Part shown: piece by piece, positions 1,409 through 26,766 of the stretch
Position numbering within the stretch: the first letter of the stretch is position 1
Layout: each line of letters begins with the position of its first letter
DNA from: Acidobacteriaceae bacterium
GTDB lineage: Bacteria; Acidobacteriota; Terriglobia; Terriglobales; Acidobacteriaceae
DNA: 64,000 nucleotides
Assembly (NCBI GenBank): GCA_025462735.1
Contig: JAOAPC010000020.1
Location: 1-64,000 of the forward strand
Reading direction: 5' to 3'
Translations under genes and position numbers: made by a program
Notes under the pieces: generated by a model
What the model was told of the DNA's origin: nothing
What the model saw: only the letters and a program-made list of their open reading frames with translations
Databases searched by the model: none

Positions 1409-3187
1409 ATGTTCTTTCGTCCACCAGCAAAATCTTTGGCTTATCTCCTGACTGTATTGTGGGTTTCGGCGGCGCACACGCTGGTCTGGGGCCAAGGTTC
1501 TAAGCAGCCCCCCATTACTCAAGACCGGGCCGAAGTAATTTATTCGCAGGGCATGGCGGCAATCGAGAAGGGTGATCTAGATCGGGCGCGGTTGTCTTTT
1601 GAGAAAGTTGTGCGTCTGGCACCCAGCAGCCCCGAGGCGCACAATTCACTCGGCTGGGTTCTCCTGCAGCTAGCACAGTTAGATTCGGCGATCACGCAGT
1701 TTCGCGCCGCTCTGAAGCTCCAGCCGGAGTTTCTCCAGGCACATGTGAATCTGGCTAATGCTTTATCCGGCAGGCACGATTTCGCGGAGGCCGAATCTGA
1801 GGCGCGGGAAGCTGTTCGCCTCGCTCCGAAAGATTCTGAAGCGCACCGAACTTTGGGCCGCATCCTGAGCTTCCGGGGAGACCTACCTGGCGCGATCGTT
1901 GAACTGCAATCGGCAATAAGTCTTGTGCCGAGACGCCCTGACCTTCACGATGATCTTGGATCGCTGTTTGAACAAACGGGCAAGATAGATGACGCTAGAG
2001 CTCAGTTTGCTGAAGCCCTGCGGTTGAAGCCGGATTATGTTCCCGCCGAGTTGCACCTCGGAATTGTTCTTTGGCAACAAAAACAGTTCGATAAGGCCCG
2101 CGAGGCCCTGGCCAACGCGGTTCAGGCCAACCTGCAAGATCCCCGAGCGCACTACTACCTTGGCCGCGTCCTAGAAGACGAAAAGCAGACCGACCAAGCG
2201 ATCGAGCAATTCAAACAGGCAACAACCTTACAGCCCGAATATGCCGACGCTCAGGAGAGTCTGGGACTCTTATCGCAACGCGCAGGCGAGACAGACACGG
2301 CGGTTACCGCATTTCGGAAACTCGTCCAGCTGCGTCCCGACGATCCGGATGCGCACAACAATCTGGGCTTGGCGTTAATTCAAACTGGAGACGCTGCCGG
2401 TTCGATGCCTGAATTTGAAACCGCCATCCGCCTTCGTCCGGATGATGCAGGTTACATCGAGAATTTGGGCACCGCGTACTTGCAGCGGACCGATTTCGAT
2501 TCAGCAATTAGACAGTTTCAAGCGGCTCTGAAAATTTCGCCGCAAGATGCGACCGCACACTACGACCTAGGCCTGGCATTGAAGTTGAAGGACCGGCTGC
2601 CGGATGCGATCACAGAATTTCAAAAGGCAGCGGAGCTATCGCCCGACCAACCTGACGTTCACTACACCCTCGGAATTACTCTCTGGCAGAAGGGAGAATT
2701 CCCGGAAGCCGAGCGGGAGTTGAGCGCTGCCACCGCCGCGAAACCCGACTACGCCGAGGCCTATTACACCTTGGGAACGGTGCTGAAGCAGGACGGAAAG
2801 CTGGAAGAGGCTGCCGCCGCCTTACGTAAGGCAATTGAGATAGATCCGGGACTGGTAGGAGCGCACACCAACCTGGCGGCAATCCTTCGACAGCAGGGTG
2901 ACGGCGCTGCCGCCGATGCCGAAAGCCGTCGAGCGCAGGAGCTATTCAAACAATCCAATAGCTTGCAGGCAGCCAGCTTCAACACTAATTCTGGGAAGAG
3001 GCTTCTCCAGGCAGGAGACGTGGACGGTGCCATCTCCCAATTTCGATCCGCAATTAACCTTGCGCCAGATTACGCCCCCGCACATCAGCTCTTGGCTCAA
3101 GCTCTGGCGCAAAAGGGGCAAAAGGCGGAAGCCGACGAGGAGTATCGCAAAGCGGCGCAGCTGGCAGGATCGAAACCGACGCCGTGA
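1409..3187 (+). CDS. Secreted TPR-repeat protein, about 15 repeats
   Basis: A 592-residue protein with an N-terminal signal peptide (about residues 1-28, ending near VWGQ). The rest is nearly all tetratricopeptide repeats of 34 residues, seen as recurring AHxNLGxxLxxxG...A...F..AL.L.P signatures from about residue 40 to 585. TPRs form an alpha-solenoid for protein-protein contacts, so the product is probably an extracytoplasmic scaffold. No catalytic domain is present. It is divergent from the CRTAC1-type gene and probably shares its promoter region, and it is convergent with the regulator at 3195-4469 with a 7-bp gap. TPR proteins are often paired with CRTAC1/ASPIC proteins in this phylum. 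A functional link is inferred from position only. Confidence 0.85.
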   Translation: MFFRPPAKSLAYLLTVLWVSAAHTLVWGQGSKQPPITQDRAEVIYSQGMAAIEKGDLDRARLSFEKVVRLAPSSPEAHNSLGWVLLQLAQLDSAITQFRAALKLQPEFLQAHVNLANALSGRHDFAEAESEAREAVRLAPKDSEAHRTLGRILSFRGDLPGAIVELQSAISLVPRRPDLHDDLGSLFEQTGKIDDARAQFAEALRLKPDYVPAELHLGIVLWQQKQFDKAREALANAVQANLQDPRAHYYLGRVLEDEKQTDQAIEQFKQATTLQPEYADAQESLGLLSQRAGETDTAVTAFRKLVQLRPDDPDAHNNLGLALIQTGDAAGSMPEFETAIRLRPDDAGYIENLGTAYLQRTDFDSAIRQFQAALKISPQDATAHYDLGLALKLKDRLPDAITEFQKAAELSPDQPDVHYTLGITLWQKGEFPEAERELSAATAAKPDYAEAYYTLGTVLKQDGKLEEAAAALRKAIEIDPGLVGAHTNLAAILRQQGDGAAADAESRRAQELFKQSNSLQAASFNTNSGKRLLQAGDVDGAISQFRSAINLAPDYAPAHQLLAQALAQKGQKAEADEEYRKAAQLAGSKPTP

Positions 3188-3194
3188 CACGATG

Positions 3195-4469
3195 TCAGCG
3201 GGCGACCTCCCGCAGAGCGACCAAGTCGGTGACCACTGGAACGCCGCGAGCGATTTTCACGTGCAGAACCGCTTCAAAAGGCTTGAGCACGCCATTTTCG
3301 GAGACGCTTAGTCGCAATAGCAGCTGTTCAAGAGAATCTTGTCTGCAGACATATTCCGCCGCCGCCTGCGTTCCAATCGTATTTGTGCCGGCCAGAATCA
3401 AAACCCAGCGCGCCGAATTCATCCCCGGCACCAGACCGATGATTGCATAGTCTTCAAGCACCGGCGTACCTGATGGACTGCCAAAGAACATTTTGGCCTC
3501 GCCCGCTCGCGGAGTGACATTGACAATCGCGATATCGCTTTTTCGTGGTCCCGAAGTCGCACGCTGAAATATAAAGTGGTGCGTGCTGGGAATATCGAGC
3601 AGGCTCAGGTTCTCCACCGGGGAGCCGACAAAGATCAGATTGTTATTTTGTGCGTCGTCCAGTGAGAACAAGCTTCCGCGTTTCACCCGAATCTGATGGT
3701 GCAACTGAGAGAAAACCTGATTCAGGTTATAAACCGCCAAGACCTCACCTACTCCCGTGTAATTGTCTGTTATGGTGTCGCGTGAATCGCGCGTGGGATT
3801 GAAGTAGCGCAACCCGACTTCCGGACGGCCAACAAACTGCCCATTGCTGAAGATGACCCACGGGGCGTCCGGTCCTGAAACGAATCCATTCCAAAAGACT
3901 TGGAACGCGGCGGGTGCCCTTTCGTCCAATTTTGAAGACCCGTTAGGTGTGATTTTGCCACTGAGCAGCGCAGCAATGCCGACAACTGCGAGAGTCAGCA
4001 GAATCGAGAGAGTCAATACCGCCCGCGAAGACTTCTCGGGCCGTGGACCGCCTTTCTGCTCTTGCCTCCTCGAAATATCTTGCAGGATTGTCTTGGTGGA
4101 CTCGGTTGCGGAATTAAAGGTTAAAGCATAGGTGCCCTTAGGCAATTCAACCAGGATGGAATCGTCAGTCCCTTCGGCAGAATAGTATTCGGAGATCTTT
4201 GAGCGCAGCCGGCTTGCCTGTACACGGACTAATGAATCCAGTTGCGGATCGAAATCGGATGGGCGACCGAACACCTCGGTTGCAATTTGATACTCCTTCA
4301 GCGGAACGCCGGGATGCCGGAGTGCGTGGTCCGCCAAATACCGCAGCAGCTTACACAGCGATTCGGATCCGTGGAGAGTATGGCTGTTGACCAGCCGGTC
4401 AATCTCGACGAGGCGCGGCTCGACGTCGGTTACATGCCCTGTTACGCCCACGGTAACAGAGAGTAACAA
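3195..4469 (-). CDS. Membrane-anchored winged-helix (OmpR/CadC-type) transcriptional regulator
   Basis: A 424-residue protein. Residues about 35-118 form a winged-helix DNA-binding domain of the OmpR C-terminal type, with LKEYQIATEVFGRP, then SLVRVQASRLRSKI for the recognition helix and LPKGTYAL for the wing. A basic linker is followed by one transmembrane helix at about 151-170 and a roughly 250-residue extracytoplasmic domain with no motif I recognise. The topology is that of CadC/ToxR one-component sensors. The gene is divergent from the TonB receptor at 5000-8722 and is the obvious candidate regulator of it. The ATG at 4469 is uncertain: a GTG at 4451 is also in frame, and a cluster of GTAAC boxes overlaps these codons, which suggests autoregulation. 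Confidence 0.85.
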   Translation of the reverse strand: MLLSVTVGVTGHVTDVEPRLVEIDRLVNSHTLHGSESLCKLLRYLADHALRHPGVPLKEYQIATEVFGRPSDFDPQLDSLVRVQASRLRSKISEYYSAEGTDDSILVELPKGTYALTFNSATESTKTILQDISRRQEQKGGPRPEKSSRAVLTLSILLTLAVVGIAALLSGKITPNGSSKLDERAPAAFQVFWNGFVSGPDAPWVIFSNGQFVGRPEVGLRYFNPTRDSRDTITDNYTGVGEVLAVYNLNQVFSQLHHQIRVKRGSLFSLDDAQNNNLIFVGSPVENLSLLDIPSTHHFIFQRATSGPRKSDIAIVNVTPRAGEAKMFFGSPSGTPVLEDYAIIGLVPGMNSARWVLILAGTNTIGTQAAAEYVCRQDSLEQLLLRLSVSENGVLKPFEAVLHVKIARGVPVVTDLVALREVAR

Positions 4470-12624: not shown

Positions 12625-13914
12625 TTACTGGTGAATCTGCCCTTCCTTGGTTCCGTTGACCGGTTGAAATGCATTGCTCATGACGTATTGGGCCACCCCG
12701 GCTCCAGTCGCTTGGCCGTCATTGCAAGCAGAGCGGAAGTGAATGCCAGCAAAGACACGCGCATCTACGATTTCGGCAAGTGCCGCCGTAAAGTTCGGGA
12801 AAGAACGTACCACTCCGACCATGACGTCGGAACCCACGCTGAAGGAAGTTGCTTCGCCAAAGTAGTCCGCAAGCACGGTTGCGGCCGCGCTACTGACAGT
12901 CGAATGGCCTGAGGGATATTCCGGATGCGCGGGTGTGGCAAACAGAGGCATCCAAGCCGGATCTGCGCTCGTGTCACCGTTGCCGTCGGTTGCAGCCAAA
13001 GGTATCGCAGTCACAGGGCGCCAGAAAACGTAATGGTATTTAGCCTCCCAACAGGCGATGGCGGCATCTGCCATGGCTACGTTAAGCAAAGCTAATAGAC
13101 GAGCATTTTCGGATAACGTGCTGTGGCGCTGAGCGGCCAGTGAAACAGCAATGGTATCCCAGTAGTAGCTTGCCGTACTCGCGTTCCAAAATAGGCTGGC
13201 GAGAGTCTGATCGGCTGTACGAATCGAACTGGAAAAACTGCCCATCGATTTCGTTTCAAGAAAATCCGCCGTGTAGCGGGCGCTGTCCAATGCAGGAGGA
13301 CCGAGCGGCCGAAATTGCGAAGGTGAAAGAATCACCCACGGAGTCATGTAAGCGAACTGCGGCCCAGCACCCGGAAGAAATGCCGGCGGCGTGGGACGCC
13401 ACTCTCCAACGGCAGTTCCGCCCGTAAACGGTGGCGGCGCTGGAGAAAAGTGGTCTGTGCTGCGCCAAGCCCAAATCGCATCGGCGACCGTCTGTCCCCA
13501 GGCGATTCCCCTCGCAATAGAGTCGCTGTGCTCAGCCGCAGCACCGCTTGAGATTCCAGCCAGGGAGGCCTCTCGTTGCAGGTTAAGTGTGCTCTGCTGG
13601 CTAGGATATAACCTTACGAGTGCCGCATAAGCCGCCTGAACCGCAGCGGCCCGCCGAGAAGCTCCTGGTGGCGCGGCGGGTGGGACATGGATTGGGCTGT
13701 AACGACCCTCGATGCCATTCACGGCGTCGAACACGGAGGCTTGTACGATGGCTGCGTTGCGACTCATGAACAGTGGCGACGTAGGAGGTACGGCCTGAAG
13801 CGCCGCTGCGAACATAATGCGGTTCCATTGAGTTACTTCGTCGGCCCGCGCGGTTGCCGTGAAAAGGCTTGCCAATGCGGCCAATAAAAACCCCAACACA
13901 CGAATAGTTTTCAT
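12625..13914 (-). CDS. Exported vanadium-dependent haloperoxidase / PAP2-type protein
   Basis: A 429-residue protein with a signal peptide (residues 1-24, ending TARADE). The vanadate/phosphate pocket motifs are in the expected order: KYHYVFWRP (K-x6-RP), PEYPSGHSTVSSA (PSGH, the acid-base His) and ARVFAGIHF (the vanadate-ligating His). This places it in the bacterial vanadium chloroperoxidase-like branch of the PAP2 superfamily, which either oxidises halides with peroxide or acts as an acid phosphatase. The last motif usually reads HxxxD; here the residue four after the His is Ala. It stands alone, divergent from no clear partner. A perfect 18-bp palindrome lies 87 bp upstream of its start. 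Confidence 0.85.
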   Translation of the reverse strand: MKTIRVLGFLLAALASLFTATARADEVTQWNRIMFAAALQAVPPTSPLFMSRNAAIVQASVFDAVNGIEGRYSPIHVPPAAPPGASRRAAAVQAAYAALVRLYPSQQSTLNLQREASLAGISSGAAAEHSDSIARGIAWGQTVADAIWAWRSTDHFSPAPPPFTGGTAVGEWRPTPPAFLPGAGPQFAYMTPWVILSPSQFRPLGPPALDSARYTADFLETKSMGSFSSSIRTADQTLASLFWNASTASYYWDTIAVSLAAQRHSTLSENARLLALLNVAMADAAIACWEAKYHYVFWRPVTAIPLAATDGNGDTSADPAWMPLFATPAHPEYPSGHSTVSSAAATVLADYFGEATSFSVGSDVMVGVVRSFPNFTAALAEIVDARVFAGIHFRSACNDGQATGAGVAQYVMSNAFQPVNGTKEGQIHQ

Positions 13915-14271: not shown

Positions 14272-14348
14272 TGGGGTGGGAGACGGGAATCGAACCCGCA
14301 ACCGTCGGAGCCACAGTCCGGTGCTCTGCCAGTTGAGCTACTCCCACC
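14272..14348 (-). tRNA. tRNA-His (GTG anticodon)
   Basis: On the minus strand the cloverleaf reads with acceptor stem GTGGGAG/CTCCCAC, D-arm GCTC...GAGC, anticodon loop CTGTGGC (anticodon GTG) and T-arm GCGGG-TTCGATT-CCCGT. Discriminator C73 is followed by an encoded CCA (14272-14274). The base before position 1 is G (complement of 14348), matching the extra G-1 that defines tRNA-His and pairs with C73. One C-A mismatch sits at the base of the anticodon stem. Confidence 0.95.
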
Positions 14349-14412: not shown

Positions 14413-15681
14413 TTACACTCTTCCTACGCCCACGTATTCAAATCCCATGGCACGCAGGCGGACGGAATCGAGGATGTTCTTGGTATCTACGATCAGAGGA
14501 CGCCGGAGGAGGGCCTTGATCTTACTGAAATCGAGTGCGCGGAATTCCGGCCAGCCGGTGGCAACCACGAGCGCTTCCACGCCTTCCGCCACCGCATACG
14601 GCGATTCGCAGTAGTGTATGGTGCCGTTCAGTTCGAGCTTGGCATCGGACATGGCTACTGGGTCATAAGCTCGCACCCGGGCGCCTCGCGAAACCAGGCT
14701 CTGAGCTAATTTGATCGACGCCGATCCGGCAACTGAGTTGGTATTCGGTTTAAACGCCAGCCCTAAAATTCCCACGTCTTTATTTTGCAGAGACTGCAGG
14801 TAGGAGGAGATTTTTTCGGCCATGCCATCGGCCAAGCATTGGTTCACTTCCCGGGCCGCGGTCAAAATCCTCAAGGGGACATGGTTCTCTTGCGCAAGAG
14901 TGGCCAGCGCATCCATATCAGACTGAGCGAACAGTCCCCCCATTGAAGCCCCCGCCTGCAAACAACGTGGCCCAATTTTCTTATCCAGGCCAAGAGCCAG
15001 CGAAAGGTGCACGGCGTCTCCGTTTACGCGCTCGCAGAGGCCGGCGAGTTCGTTGATAAACGAAATTTTGGTGGCGACAAAAGCAGTTGCCGCCTCCCGA
15101 GCCAATTCTGCGGTCGCGTGATTGGTCACGATAACCGGAACACCGCGCATCACCACCGGATGGAAGATCTGCTTGATAGAAAGCACAGCGTCATTCGAAC
15201 TCGTCCCGAGAATGATGCGGTCGGGCCAGTTGAAATCTTCGACGGCACAGCCGGCGGTAAAGAAAATCGGCTGGGAGACGACGATTGCTTTTAATCCAGC
15301 CTCCTGCAACCGTTTTTCCAGTGCCGCTCCGGTACCCACCGAGACCGGCGTAACGATCGAGAGAATCGGCGGCTTCGGCGCTACCTTGGCAATGCGAATA
15401 ACGAGTTCGGGGAGGTGCTGCGGAGTGTCCTCGGCCAGAAAAATCACGCCACACTTGCGCGCAAAAGAGTCAACATCGGTCGAATATGCCAGCCGTCCGG
15501 AACGAACGCTGCGTTTGATGACCTCACTCAGGTTCTTCTCGTGGAACGGCACTTTGCCCTGGGCCATTTCCACCATGAGGGAACTATCGGGATGGCAGCA
15601 GGTTACGGGAGTACCAAAGTCCGCCAAACAGGCTGAAGTCACTGTCCCCAGATACCCGGCCCCATAGACACCGATCTGCAT
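14413..15681 (-). CDS. UDP-glucose/GDP-mannose dehydrogenase family paralogue, probable pseudoenzyme
   Basis: A 422-residue intact frame aligned end to end with nucleotide-sugar 6-dehydrogenases. It has an N-terminal Rossmann GAGYLG (residues 7-12), a central TKISFINE helix, a C-terminal GLAFKPNT segment (residue 305 region) and AYDP. Active enzymes have a catalytic Cys in GGSCFPKD; here the segment is GGLFAQSD, with Phe251 at the Cys position and only the Asp (255) kept. The loop PEFLREG becomes PIFFTAG (Ile139 and Ala143 replace both Glu). The substrate-binding Lys and Asn become Arg195 and Thr199. The NAD-ribose Asp after strand 2 is His30. The fold looks intact but oxidation of UDP-glucose to UDP-glucuronate is unlikely. 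A regulatory or binding role, or decay without frameshift, are the alternatives. Confidence 0.8.
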   Translation of the reverse strand: MQIGVYGAGYLGTVTSACLADFGTPVTCCHPDSSLMVEMAQGKVPFHEKNLSEVIKRSVRSGRLAYSTDVDSFARKCGVIFLAEDTPQHLPELVIRIAKVAPKPPILSIVTPVSVGTGAALEKRLQEAGLKAIVVSQPIFFTAGCAVEDFNWPDRIILGTSSNDAVLSIKQIFHPVVMRGVPVIVTNHATAELAREAATAFVATKISFINELAGLCERVNGDAVHLSLALGLDKKIGPRCLQAGASMGGLFAQSDMDALATLAQENHVPLRILTAAREVNQCLADGMAEKISSYLQSLQNKDVGILGLAFKPNTNSVAGSASIKLAQSLVSRGARVRAYDPVAMSDAKLELNGTIHYCESPYAVAEGVEALVVATGWPEFRALDFSKIKALLRRPLIVDTKNILDSVRLRAMGFEYVGVGRV

Positions 15682-15860
15682 CGATTCTCCCGCGGTCCAA
15701 AAACGCTCAGCCCGTCGTATCTTTTATTTACGCTGTTGGTTGCGCTATGGGCAGAGTACGGGAGGGACATATGGCATGCGAAGAAGTACAGTAACGTTCA
15801 TGCCTGGTACTACGGAGTCCGCTCAGGAAGGCATTTGTAGGGTGTCGGGGAGGGCGGCAG

Positions 15861-16424
15861 TCAGCGCACGAGGCCGGAAGTCGGGACCAGCCGTTGTCCC
15901 AGTGGAATTTCGGCCAGATCAACCCAGCGGTTCTGGGCTTCCTCCCGGACGAAAGTCAAATCACGGACCTCGATGCAGCGGGATTGGTCGAACTCGGCCC
16001 AGCGGGTGCGGGCCACACGATACGCGTATTGAGCCTGGTCCTCGGCGCCCATTTTCACGATGGTCAGATGCGGCATGTAGGGCCATTCTTCGTGGCACGC
16101 CAGGGCATTGACATTCAGCCGGTCGTGCAATTCACGCATGCGGTAGGCGGCATGTGCGACCCGGATAAAAACCGTGGGCGTTACAGGAATAAAGGTCTCG
16201 ACTTCACCCAGCGAGACCTCAAACGGCTCAACTTCTTTACAGAGTTCCTCCATATTTTCGAGCGCGGCGGACTCCGTGCCATGAAGCAGGCGAGGTGGCA
16301 GTAACGTCACGTGGGCGGCAAGATGAGGTAGTTCTGGATGGAGTTCCTTGCGCAGAGATTCGACGAACTCTCCGACCGGATTCCTCACGTAGGCTACGAG
16401 TGCATAACGCTGGTTTCGCGTCAT
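15861..16424 (-). CDS. 2H phosphoesterase, LigT / 2'-5' RNA ligase-like
   Basis: A 187-residue protein with the two HxT motifs that define the 2H phosphoesterase fold: HVT at residues 38-40 and HLT at 119-121, about 80 residues apart as usual. Family members open 2',3'-cyclic phosphates in RNA or act on related cyclic phosphodiesters. It stands alone on the minus strand. The last codons run in a region with no neighbour that would show its substrate. Confidence 0.8.
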   Translation of the reverse strand: MTRNQRYALVAYVRNPVGEFVESLRKELHPELPHLAAHVTLLPPRLLHGTESAALENMEELCKEVEPFEVSLGEVETFIPVTPTVFIRVAHAAYRMRELHDRLNVNALACHEEWPYMPHLTIVKMGAEDQAQYAYRVARTRWAEFDQSRCIEVRDLTFVREEAQNRWVDLAEIPLGQRLVPTSGLVR

Positions 16425-23188: not shown

Positions 23189-24229
23189 ATCCTCACCGAC
23201 AAATTCGGGCGCGCCATCACCGATCTGCGGATTTCCGTCACCGATCGATGCAATTACAAGTGTGTCTATTGCCGTACGGGCAACGAAGGGGCAGTTTACG
23301 GTGAGCTGCCGTTTGCGGACTATTTGCGAATGGCGCGCGTCCTGGTGTCGCTCGGTGTCACGAAGATTCGAATCACAGGTGGTGAGCCGCTGTTGCGCAA
23401 GGGCGTGGTGGATTTTGTGCGCGAGCTGGCGAAGCTGCGGCCTCAGGGGCTAAAGCCCGTCAACAAGAGTGCGGCAATTGGCACGGCTGAAGCCATGCCC
23501 TTCCCACAAGCCCTCGATATCGCGATTACCACGAATGGACATCTCCTTGCCGATCTAGCGAAGCCGCTAAAGGATGCTGGGCTGAATCGAGTCACCGTCA
23601 GTATGGATGCGGTCGATGCGGAGCGTTTCGCGCGCATCACTCGCGTGCCGGGCGGCTTCGATCATGTACTCGCCGGAGTTCGCGCTTCCCGCGAGGCCGG
23701 ACTGTCGCCGGTTAAGGTAAATTGCGTCCTCATGCGCGGGTTTAATGAGGACCAGGTTGTTCCTTTTGGCAAGTTCGCGCGCGAAGAAGGCGTGATCGTG
23801 CGATTCATCGAATTCATGCCGCTTGAGGAAGACCGGGTGTGGTCGCCTGAAGTAGTTGTCACCATGGATGAGATTCTCGAGCGCATGAGTGAATATCGTC
23901 CGCTGGTCGAAATTCCACACGAGCGCAGCGAAACCGCGCGGCGATACCGTTTTGACGATGGCATCGGCGAGATTGGGATTATTGCTCCCGTGTCCCATCC
24001 GTTCTGCGGACATTGCAGCCGCATTCGGATCACCTCGGATGGCAAGATCCGCACTTGCCTGTTTTCAGTGTGGGACCACGATCTTCACGAATTGATGCGG
24101 CGCGGCGCGTCGGATGACGATCTGGTCGGCTTCATCCGCGATGTTGTCAGCAAAAAAGAAGCGCGTCATCATATTGGTGAGCCCGATTTTGTTCCGGCAT
24201 CGCGGACCATGGTGCATATCGGGGGCTAG
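23186..24229 (+). CDS. moaA: GTP 3',8-cyclase MoaA, molybdenum cofactor synthesis
   Basis: A radical-SAM enzyme that converts GTP to 3',8-cH2GTP, the first step of molybdopterin synthesis. From the CTG at 23186 it has 347 residues, close to the usual size. The N-terminal cluster is CNYKCVYC, followed by RITGGEPLLRKG. The C-terminal cluster is FCGHCSRIRI with a third Cys in KIRTCLF. The essential C-terminal Gly-Gly (MVHIGG) is present. An ATG at 23324 would remove the first cluster and is rejected. No other moa gene is adjacent. Expression is probably controlled by the leader upstream. Confidence 0.9.
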   Translation: MILTDKFGRAITDLRISVTDRCNYKCVYCRTGNEGAVYGELPFADYLRMARVLVSLGVTKIRITGGEPLLRKGVVDFVRELAKLRPQGLKPVNKSAAIGTAEAMPFPQALDIAITTNGHLLADLAKPLKDAGLNRVTVSMDAVDAERFARITRVPGGFDHVLAGVRASREAGLSPVKVNCVLMRGFNEDQVVPFGKFAREEGVIVRFIEFMPLEEDRVWSPEVVVTMDEILERMSEYRPLVEIPHERSETARRYRFDDGIGEIGIIAPVSHPFCGHCSRIRITSDGKIRTCLFSVWDHDLHELMRRGASDDDLVGFIRDVVSKKEARHHIGEPDFVPASRTMVHIGG

Positions 24230-25653: not shown

Positions 25654-26766
25654 ATGGCTACGGCAGCACAAGTTTGCAGTCTGGATAATTATCTCGTTCT
25701 TCCCGATCACACCATGGATGACCGCATTGCTGCGGCCCGGCAAGAGCTCGGCCGTGAATTGGTCATTCTTGGACATCATTACCAACGCGATGAAGTAATC
25801 CGCTTCGCCGACTTTCGCGGCGACTCTTACAAGCTTTCTCAGGAGGCGGCGCAGGCAGGCGGCAAATATATCGTTTTTTGCGGCGTGCACTTCATGGCCG
25901 AGAGCGCGGATATTCTGGCGCGGCCCGGGCAAGTCACGATTCTCCCTGATCTGAACGCTGGGTGCTCGATGGCGGACATGGCGGAAATTACTCAGGTTGA
26001 AGACTGCTGGGAAAACCTGGTCCGTGCCGGCGTCACCAACGACGAAGGCGATGGCGTTACTCCAATTACCTACATGAACTCCACGGCGGCGATCAAAGCG
26101 TTTTGCGGGGAACGTGGTGGCGTGGTCTGCACGTCCTCAAACGCTGCGGGAGCTTTCCAGTGGGGATTCGCGAAGACTCCTAAATTGCTTTTCCTCCCCG
26201 ATCAACACCTCGGCCGGAATACCGGATACAAACTTGGTATCCCGCTGAACGAAATGGTCGTGTGGGACCCCTACATGCTGAATGGAGGTGTCGATCCGGA
26301 GCGGCTGAAGAAGGCTCGCGTCATCCTCTGGAAGGGACACTGCTCGGTCCATCAACGCTTCCTGCCTGAGCACGTGGACAACGTGCGCGCAAAATATCCT
26401 GGCATCCGCGTGATTGTGCATCCCGAATGCCGCTGGGAAGTTTGCCAAAAAGCGGACGGGATTGGATCGACAGAAGGCCTCCTAAAAATGATTCGCCAGG
26501 CGCCTGCCGGCACAATGTTCGCCGTCGGTACGGAAATTCACTTGGTGAACCGTATGGGCAAGGAATTCGCGGCGGAAGACAAGAAGGTGATCACGCTTAA
26601 CGACTCCGGCTGCCTGTGCACGACCATGTTCCGCATTTCGCCGCAGCACCTGTGCTGGGTGCTGGAGAACCTTGTCGAAGGAAATGCTGTAAATCAGATC
26701 AAAGTGCGCGATGACGTAAAGCACTGGGCGAGAGTGGCCCTGGACAGGATGCTGGAAATCCAATAA
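25654..26766 (+). CDS. nadA: Quinolinate synthase NadA
   Basis: A 370-residue [4Fe-4S] enzyme that condenses iminoaspartate with dihydroxyacetone phosphate to quinolinate in NAD synthesis. Key features are LGHHYQRDEVIRFAD, CGVHFMAESADIL, NAGCSMADM (Cys104), STAAIKAFCG, HPECRWEVC (Cys259) and SGCLCTTMFRI (Cys322), the expected cluster ligands of the long-form NadA. No nadB or nadC lies in the window, so the iminoaspartate source is elsewhere. No clear Shine-Dalgarno precedes the ATG. Confidence 0.94.
   Translation: MATAAQVCSLDNYLVLPDHTMDDRIAAARQELGRELVILGHHYQRDEVIRFADFRGDSYKLSQEAAQAGGKYIVFCGVHFMAESADILARPGQVTILPDLNAGCSMADMAEITQVEDCWENLVRAGVTNDEGDGVTPITYMNSTAAIKAFCGERGGVVCTSSNAAGAFQWGFAKTPKLLFLPDQHLGRNTGYKLGIPLNEMVVWDPYMLNGGVDPERLKKARVILWKGHCSVHQRFLPEHVDNVRAKYPGIRVIVHPECRWEVCQKADGIGSTEGLLKMIRQAPAGTMFAVGTEIHLVNRMGKEFAAEDKKVITLNDSGCLCTTMFRISPQHLCWVLENLVEGNAVNQIKVRDDVKHWARVALDRMLEIQ

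Follow-up and report, generated by a model that had tools for sequence, protein, structure and literature searches.

What is the function of a protein that has the architecture of a nucleotide-sugar dehydrogenase and in which the residues that contact substrate and cofactor are replaced? This question is raised by a gene on the minus strand (14413..15681) of a 64,000-nucleotide stretch of Acidobacteriaceae DNA (positions 1 to 64,000 of contig JAOAPC010000020.1, assembly GCA_025462735.1), which is called the window here. NDP-sugar dehydrogenases form a large and well-studied family, and the 422-residue product of this gene carries all three Pfam domains of the UDP-glucose/GDP-mannose dehydrogenase (UDPG_MGDP_dh) family, N-terminal, central and C-terminal, in order and above the gathering score, with catalytic, NAD-contact and UDP-contact residues replaced. 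An initial annotation of the gene had described the fold-defining segments as kept and the frame as free of frameshifts and stops. Both descriptions held: GAGYLG, TKISFINE and GLAFKPNT were found at residues 7–12, 204–211 and 307–314, respectively, and the frame of the window copy is intact, with zero internal stops. Against the model TIGR03026 the protein scored 271.1 (cut-off 189.8), which means that automatic annotation is likely to call it a nucleotide-sugar dehydrogenase, and it reached the cut-off of none of the five equivalog models compared. A phmmer search gave the Sphingomonas UDP-glucose dehydrogenase (UGDH) 4a7p as the best solved-structure match by sequence (E 9e-86, residues 2–421). 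We refer to the protein as the look-alike.

Structure prediction indicates that the UGDH fold is retained. The first model, built from an alignment of the subfamily only, had a pLDDT of 81.2 and a pTM of 0.66; its top-ranked matches were UGDH chains with TM of only 0.46–0.48, owing to the domain placement. This model aligned best to GDP-mannose dehydrogenase 1mfz (Z 26.1, rmsd 5.2, 382 residues), a Z within 1 of those of several UGDHs, whose rmsd was 17–19. The second model, for which eight viral UGDHs were added to the alignment, reached a pLDDT of 89.7 and a pTM of 0.81 and gave TM 0.94 and rmsd 1.7–1.8 Å when compared with the best chains of 4a7p and 3gg2, its domain arrangement being partly imposed by the added viral rows.

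Residues of the active site were called from an alignment with the ordinary copies of the same genome and with 4a7p, 3gg2 and 2y0e. The catalytic Cys is replaced by Phe251, the loop Glu pair by Ile139 and Ala143, the Lys by Arg195, the Asn by Thr199 and the NAD Asp by His30, with Asp255 kept, exactly as the initial annotation had listed them. Further replacements at conserved positions, absent from that list, are Thr by Pro112, Arg by Ala318, Arg by Lys401 and Phe by Cys240. GxG and Lys311 are retained. Roles for Cys276, Lys220, Asn224, Asp280, Thr131, Arg260 and the loop 265–280 of human UGDH are given in the sections of PMC3184952 used here, and those of PMC12493151 give Glu165 and Arg346 as NAD contacts and Arg442 as a contact of the UDP ribose. 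The pocket residues of the window protein were assigned provisionally, by alignment, shared motifs and human numbering. We take human Cys276, Lys220, Asn224 and Asp280 to be Phe251, Arg195, Thr199 and Asp255 of the window protein, Thr131 and Arg260 to be Pro112 and Lys235, the loop 265–280 to be the stretch 240–255, and Glu165, Arg346 and Arg442 to be Ala143, Ala318 and Lys401. Ser130, Phe265 and Glu161 were likewise provisionally matched to window positions by motif and human numbering, and the window residues that we assume to correspond to the loop wrapping UDP-glucose in the human enzyme are changed as well.

The replacements were followed through 109 distinct full-length or near full-length orthologues with identity down to 56%. 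Of these, 39 (the window copy among them) belong to genomes of the same family as the window, and the other 70 to named Acidobacteriota records taken irrespective of family; 11 partial loci were left out, including five that represent a single gene of genome G004. They were compared with 33 ordinary relatives, seven from the genus and 26 from other families, in all of which the catalytic Cys, the Lys, the Asn, the active-site Thr and both Glu are present. Among the orthologues the fixed REPLACEMENTS are clear: Cys251, Lys195 and Asn199 each occur in 0/109, as does the first Glu of the NPEFxxEG loop (Glu139), and the second (Glu143) in 6/109, the window protein having neither Glu. The initial annotation had left it to be checked whether the replaced residues are conserved, and they largely are. 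Phe251 and Thr199, together with Pro112, Cys145, Glu148, Asp85 and Lys401, are found in 109/109, Arg195 (His in the one exception), Arg277 and Cys240 in 108/109 each, and Glu196 in 105/109. The stretch between residues 83 and 112, which sits in the NAD domain, has 29 residues in 108 orthologues and 30 in one, nine fewer than the 38–39 of the ordinary relatives (33/33). The statement that only Asp255 remains was right for the window copy and does not extend to the subfamily, in which this position is Asp in 97, Glu in eight, Asn in two and Gln in two of the 109. At position 143 the listed residues are Asp (58), Asn (19), Pro (16), Ala (7) and Glu (6).

Fifteen columns are at least 95% conserved both in the subfamily and in the ordinary relatives, with different residues. 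Seven of them (111, 112, 195, 199, 240, 251 and 401) correspond to active-site or UDP-contact residues named in the sections of PMC3184952 or PMC12493151 used here; nothing in the analysis ties the other eight to the pocket. In another 53 columns, conservation is at least 95% in the subfamily and below 75% in the ordinary relatives. Most of the site has thus been rewritten and then held instead of drifting, with position 143 as the exception. Position 30 is His in 84, Asp in 22 and Gly in three orthologues. A switch to NADP, by GxGxxA plus His30, may be possible; the two changes are not coupled (Ala12 with His30 in 19/109, Ala12 with Asp30 in 5/109, Gly12 with His30 in 64/109).

The dN/dS comparison that the initial annotation had called for gave values far from 1. 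By the NG86 method, 42 close pairs were taken with each sequence used once; one had no computable dS, 40 of the remaining 41 lay within 0.01–0.10 and one at 0.21, and as many dS values exceed 1 the exact ratios are rough. The window copy and its nearest relative, that of G004, gave dN 0.041, dS 1.50 and dN/dS 0.027. Purifying selection on the gene is strong. The length of the orthologues is 421–424 residues in 106/109. In a tree of 78 rows the subfamily forms one clade with support 100/100 on a stem of 1.13 changes per site; a long-branch warning applies to L161, which adjoins the subfamily, and L133 and L137 (identical to L166 and L172) were placed inside it and counted in no group. Two broken copies were found, both in draft assemblies. 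The G004 copy (L200, contig G004:C492, about 2785–3990) has a deletion of ~67 bp and a frame shift, which may be a recent loss or an assembly error. The copy in G059 is in two pieces, the first of which contains stops, and may likewise reflect an assembly error.

The look-alike is one member of a subfamily. An orthologue is present in seven of the eight genomes of the genus, broken in one (G004), and the eighth genome is 65% complete; in the taxonomic family it is present in 69 of 150 genomes, counting matches of at least 56% identity, fragments included. When one genome per species was scanned, 107 relatives were obtained, and the best 80 of these 107 all carry Acidobacteriota titles. Neither 297 genomes of the phylum nor 299 of the class gave a match as strong outside the family. 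In the class scan (299 genomes) the E value drops from 2.9e-203 to 1.1e-124 with nothing in between, and nine proteins picked among the next-best matches have Cys, Lys, Asn and Glu139 in 9/9 and Glu143 in 7/9. Intermediates between the look-alike and ordinary relatives were thus not seen in these sets.

The conserved neighbour is the upstream gene (15861..16424, minus strand), which encodes a 187-residue 2H phosphoesterase (PF13563, E 1.2e-21) of YjcG/PRK13679-like type. Its nearest NCBIfam model is the uncharacterised PRK13679 (55.8 bits, cut-off 129), and its nearest relative in the PDB is B. subtilis BSU11850 (2d4g, E 2e-7). Both HxT/S motifs are conserved: His38, His119 and Thr121 are present in 91/91 aligned copies, and position 40 is Thr in 80 and Ser in 11. 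In 89/109 loci the 2H gene is found no more than 1.1 kb upstream, on the same strand; in four it is 1.8–4.6 kb off, and in 16, three of which have less than 300 bp of upstream sequence, it was not seen. Among the 150 family genomes, with the same identity threshold and fragments included, both genes are present in 61, neither in 71 and one in 18 (look-alike alone in eight, 2H gene alone in ten), giving a Fisher p of 2e-22 uncorrected for shared ancestry. A relative of the 2H protein was found in ten of 199 genomes of a phylum sample, five of them in the window's family.

Directly downstream of the look-alike gene is a tRNA-His (GTG) at 14272..14347 (minus strand), found within 600 bp in 64 of the 102 loci with enough sequence. 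In five loci that have the 2H gene and lack the look-alike, this tRNA follows the 2H gene directly in three and no tRNA is present in the stretch covered in two; the adjacency of the genes may therefore be an inherited position and not a sign of function. Other neighbours are less frequent: once the reading-frame shadows of the two genes were set aside, the next real-gene clusters occur in at most 23 of 82 loci, and no conserved pathway gene other than the 2H gene was found in these 82. Beyond the tRNA in the window lies a gene for a PAP2-superfamily protein (12625–13914, minus strand, E 7e-8), which we take, as an impression only, to be vanadium-haloperoxidase-like. Two other readings of the neighbourhood were dropped. 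A search of PADLOC-DB with the look-alike and the 2H protein gave no match for either at E 0.001 and no other neighbour is as widespread as the 2H gene, so that a role in anti-phage defence was abandoned. Salvage of ADP-ribose cyclic phosphate through a KptA-type 2'-phosphotransferase, considered as a link to the 2H protein, was abandoned since PF01885 was found in 0/150 family genomes (the control matched 3/14).

A conserved element precedes the look-alike gene by some 90–150 bp, mostly 110–139 bp, before the start codon. Its 24-base consensus, GTACANNNCCCTCCCGTGCGTTGC, was matched with at most five mismatches in 60/106 loci and in 0/530 shuffles, a count biased in its favour by a consensus built from the same loci; the diverged window copy (15751..15774, minus strand) has six mismatches, a level reached by 5/530 shuffles. 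A putative promoter of the form TTG-spacer-TAnAnA was found in 65/108 loci, with 2.2 expected by shuffling, and TAAATA at 15725..15730 (minus strand) is, by consensus match only, the -10-like hexamer of the gene's own putative promoter in the window. Of 12 whole genomes searched with a 23-base version (at most two mismatches), six contain it once each, always before the look-alike gene, and six lack it. Genome G013 has the element before the look-alike gene though its 2H gene is 4.6 kb away. Elsewhere in the window, on the plus strand, two tandem matches to the nadA-motif riboswitch (RF03013; 25474–25642) stand just upstream of the gene for quinolinate synthase NadA (25654–26766), and a match to the molybdenum/tungsten cofactor riboswitch (RF01055; 22962–23127, 36.5 bits, threshold 36) precedes a radical SAM/Mob_synth_C gene (23324–24229).

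Taken together, the results suggest an explanation that we regard, as a whole, as somewhat probable. A copy of UDP-glucose dehydrogenase, arising once as an old duplicate or by transfer, would, in one lineage of Acidobacteriota, have given up the NAD-dependent oxidation of alcohols; its pocket would have been rebuilt from a different set of residues, now fixed; and it would today be kept as a ligand-binding protein that oxidises no NDP-sugar. Judged by its residues, the look-alike is very probably not an NDP-sugar dehydrogenase, since the two-step oxidation known for the family is abolished when Cys, Lys, Asn and Thr are missing; the usual use of NAD is made less likely by the replacement of the Glu and Arg that contact it and by the shortened stretch. 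By sequence some residual activity may be possible, as Asp255 (in 97/109), GxG and Lys311 are kept. The change in the UDP-wrapping loop argues against UDP-glucose, and the nucleotide-sugar sensor proposed in the initial annotation is less likely than was implied there, the match of these positions being provisional. Since NAD- and UDP-contact positions are both replaced, the ligand has probably changed, and the renewed fixation of the pocket is what binding of another ligand, or catalysis of another reaction, would be expected to produce. Instead of UDP-glucose plus NAD, the rebuilt pocket probably accommodates some other small ligand, and such binding would be the reason why its residues are fixed. 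Tentatively, the work of the look-alike may also be coupled to that of the neighbouring 2H phosphoesterase, for example by binding its substrate or product or by gating the enzyme. The earlier proposal of selection for a non-catalytic role stands as far as selection is concerned, given the fixed residues and the low dN/dS; the word non-catalytic would mean only that the chemistry is not that of UGDH, and other chemistry would be possible.

We would thus place ligand binding first, new chemistry second and a scaffold third. New chemistry would mean that the rebuilt pocket (Arg195, Glu196, Thr199, Glu148, Cys145, Cys240, Arg277 and Asp85) does a different reaction, perhaps on a nucleotide derivative. 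Many polar or charged positions newly fixed in the subfamily (Asp85, Cys145, Glu148, Thr199 and Lys401 in every orthologue, Arg277 and Cys240 in all but one, Glu196 in 105) would suit such an enzyme, and PMC10211241 mentions pseudoenzymes whose catalytic residues have migrated; nevertheless, these positions form no recognisable catalytic constellation, the Lys/Asn pair of the oxidoreductase and its active-site Thr are gone, and apart from the 2H gene no conserved pathway genes lie alongside, so that we hold this reading to be possible at a rather low probability. It is unlikely that the look-alike is a non-catalytic scaffold or subunit, selected for its surface and not its pocket, with the 2H protein or another protein as partner: the seven fixed differences at active-site or UDP-contact positions would be needless for a pure scaffold and co-retention with the 2H gene is imperfect, even though the linkage in 89/109 loci, the very high overall conservation and the eight fixed differences not tied to the pocket would agree with it.

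Whether the look-alike serves an active UGDH as its sensor or regulatory partner, the idea of the initial annotation, can be judged from the ordinary copies. As that annotation had advised looking for, active-type paralogues do exist: the window genome has two ordinary UGDH copies, 37% identical, with all catalytic residues, besides further proteins with PF00984, the central domain of the family. Such a partnership would also be in keeping with the oligomeric nature of UGDHs, where the substrate bound in one subunit is contacted by residues of another (PMC3184952). However, no UGDH gene is a conserved neighbour, and in G066 (2.2 Mb, 100% complete) and G097 (98% complete) the look-alike is the sole PF00984 match, the 2H gene being present in both. 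The look-alike is therefore not a general helper of active UGDH, and it can be kept without any active homologue if these drafts are as complete as estimated, in which case an obligate role is contradicted. We consider this role very unlikely. Least probable by far is a pseudogene caught before loss of its frame. The broken copies of G004 and G059 would speak for it; against it stand dN/dS far below 1, fixed residues and constant length, on which the reading was rejected, and because the replacements are common to 109 Acidobacteriota orthologues they do not belong to one decaying copy. The reading as a pseudo-dehydrogenase turned ligand-binding protein is therefore the one that we retain.

The fixed catalytic replacements, spread over a whole clade, would illustrate cleanly how an oxidoreductase fold can be put to a different use. 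They also give a defined system in which a new ligand can be sought, with one gene, one frequent partner, one upstream element and two genomes without the parent enzyme. A further and rather doubtful suggestion is that the look-alike is a new enzyme or receptor whose metabolite, derived from a nucleotide, has so far escaped recognition, and that it and the YjcG-like 2H phosphoesterase make up a module of two proteins that handles nucleotides in one lineage of Acidobacteriota; if so, the module would be kept even in a 2.2-Mb genome with no other nucleotide-sugar dehydrogenase detected. As a caution, synthesis of UDP-glucuronate in these soil bacteria should not be inferred from the look-alike gene.

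Among known systems, UDP-glucose 6-dehydrogenase of the TuaD/UgdG type (4a7p, 3gg2) has the same three-domain architecture and fold; the look-alike differs from it in lacking the catalytic Cys, the Lys, the Asn and the first loop Glu, in its replaced NAD and UDP contacts and in a stretch of the N-terminal domain that is nine residues shorter. GDP-mannose 6-dehydrogenase (1mfz) belongs to the same superfamily at 19% identity, whereas the catalytic residues of that family are absent from the window protein, and the best alignment of the first model to 1mfz is to be read with its unsure domain placement. Five close UGDH-like proteins encoded on IMG/VR viral contigs (L225–L229, about 1001–2158 each) also lack the catalytic Cys, with Asn in its place (GGINLPRD), and the C-terminal PF03720 domain was not detected in L225. 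Unlike the look-alike, they retain Lys, Asn and the second Glu of the loop, and at ~22% identity to the window protein they appear from their sequences to be a second Cys-less UGDH branch, in viral contigs. No description of a catalytically dead UGDH subfamily was found in the literature searched, which was mostly open-access, and UGDH, UDP-glucose and nucleotide sugar never occur in the main text of PMC10211241. This review defines pseudoenzymes by conserved catalytic motifs missing from the sequence, and such motifs are absent from the look-alike. With the pseudoenzymes of metabolic families described there, the look-alike shares the missing catalytic motif, the retained fold and a gene under selection, and its subfamily would accordingly be classed, by sequence, as a pseudoenzyme of a known family.
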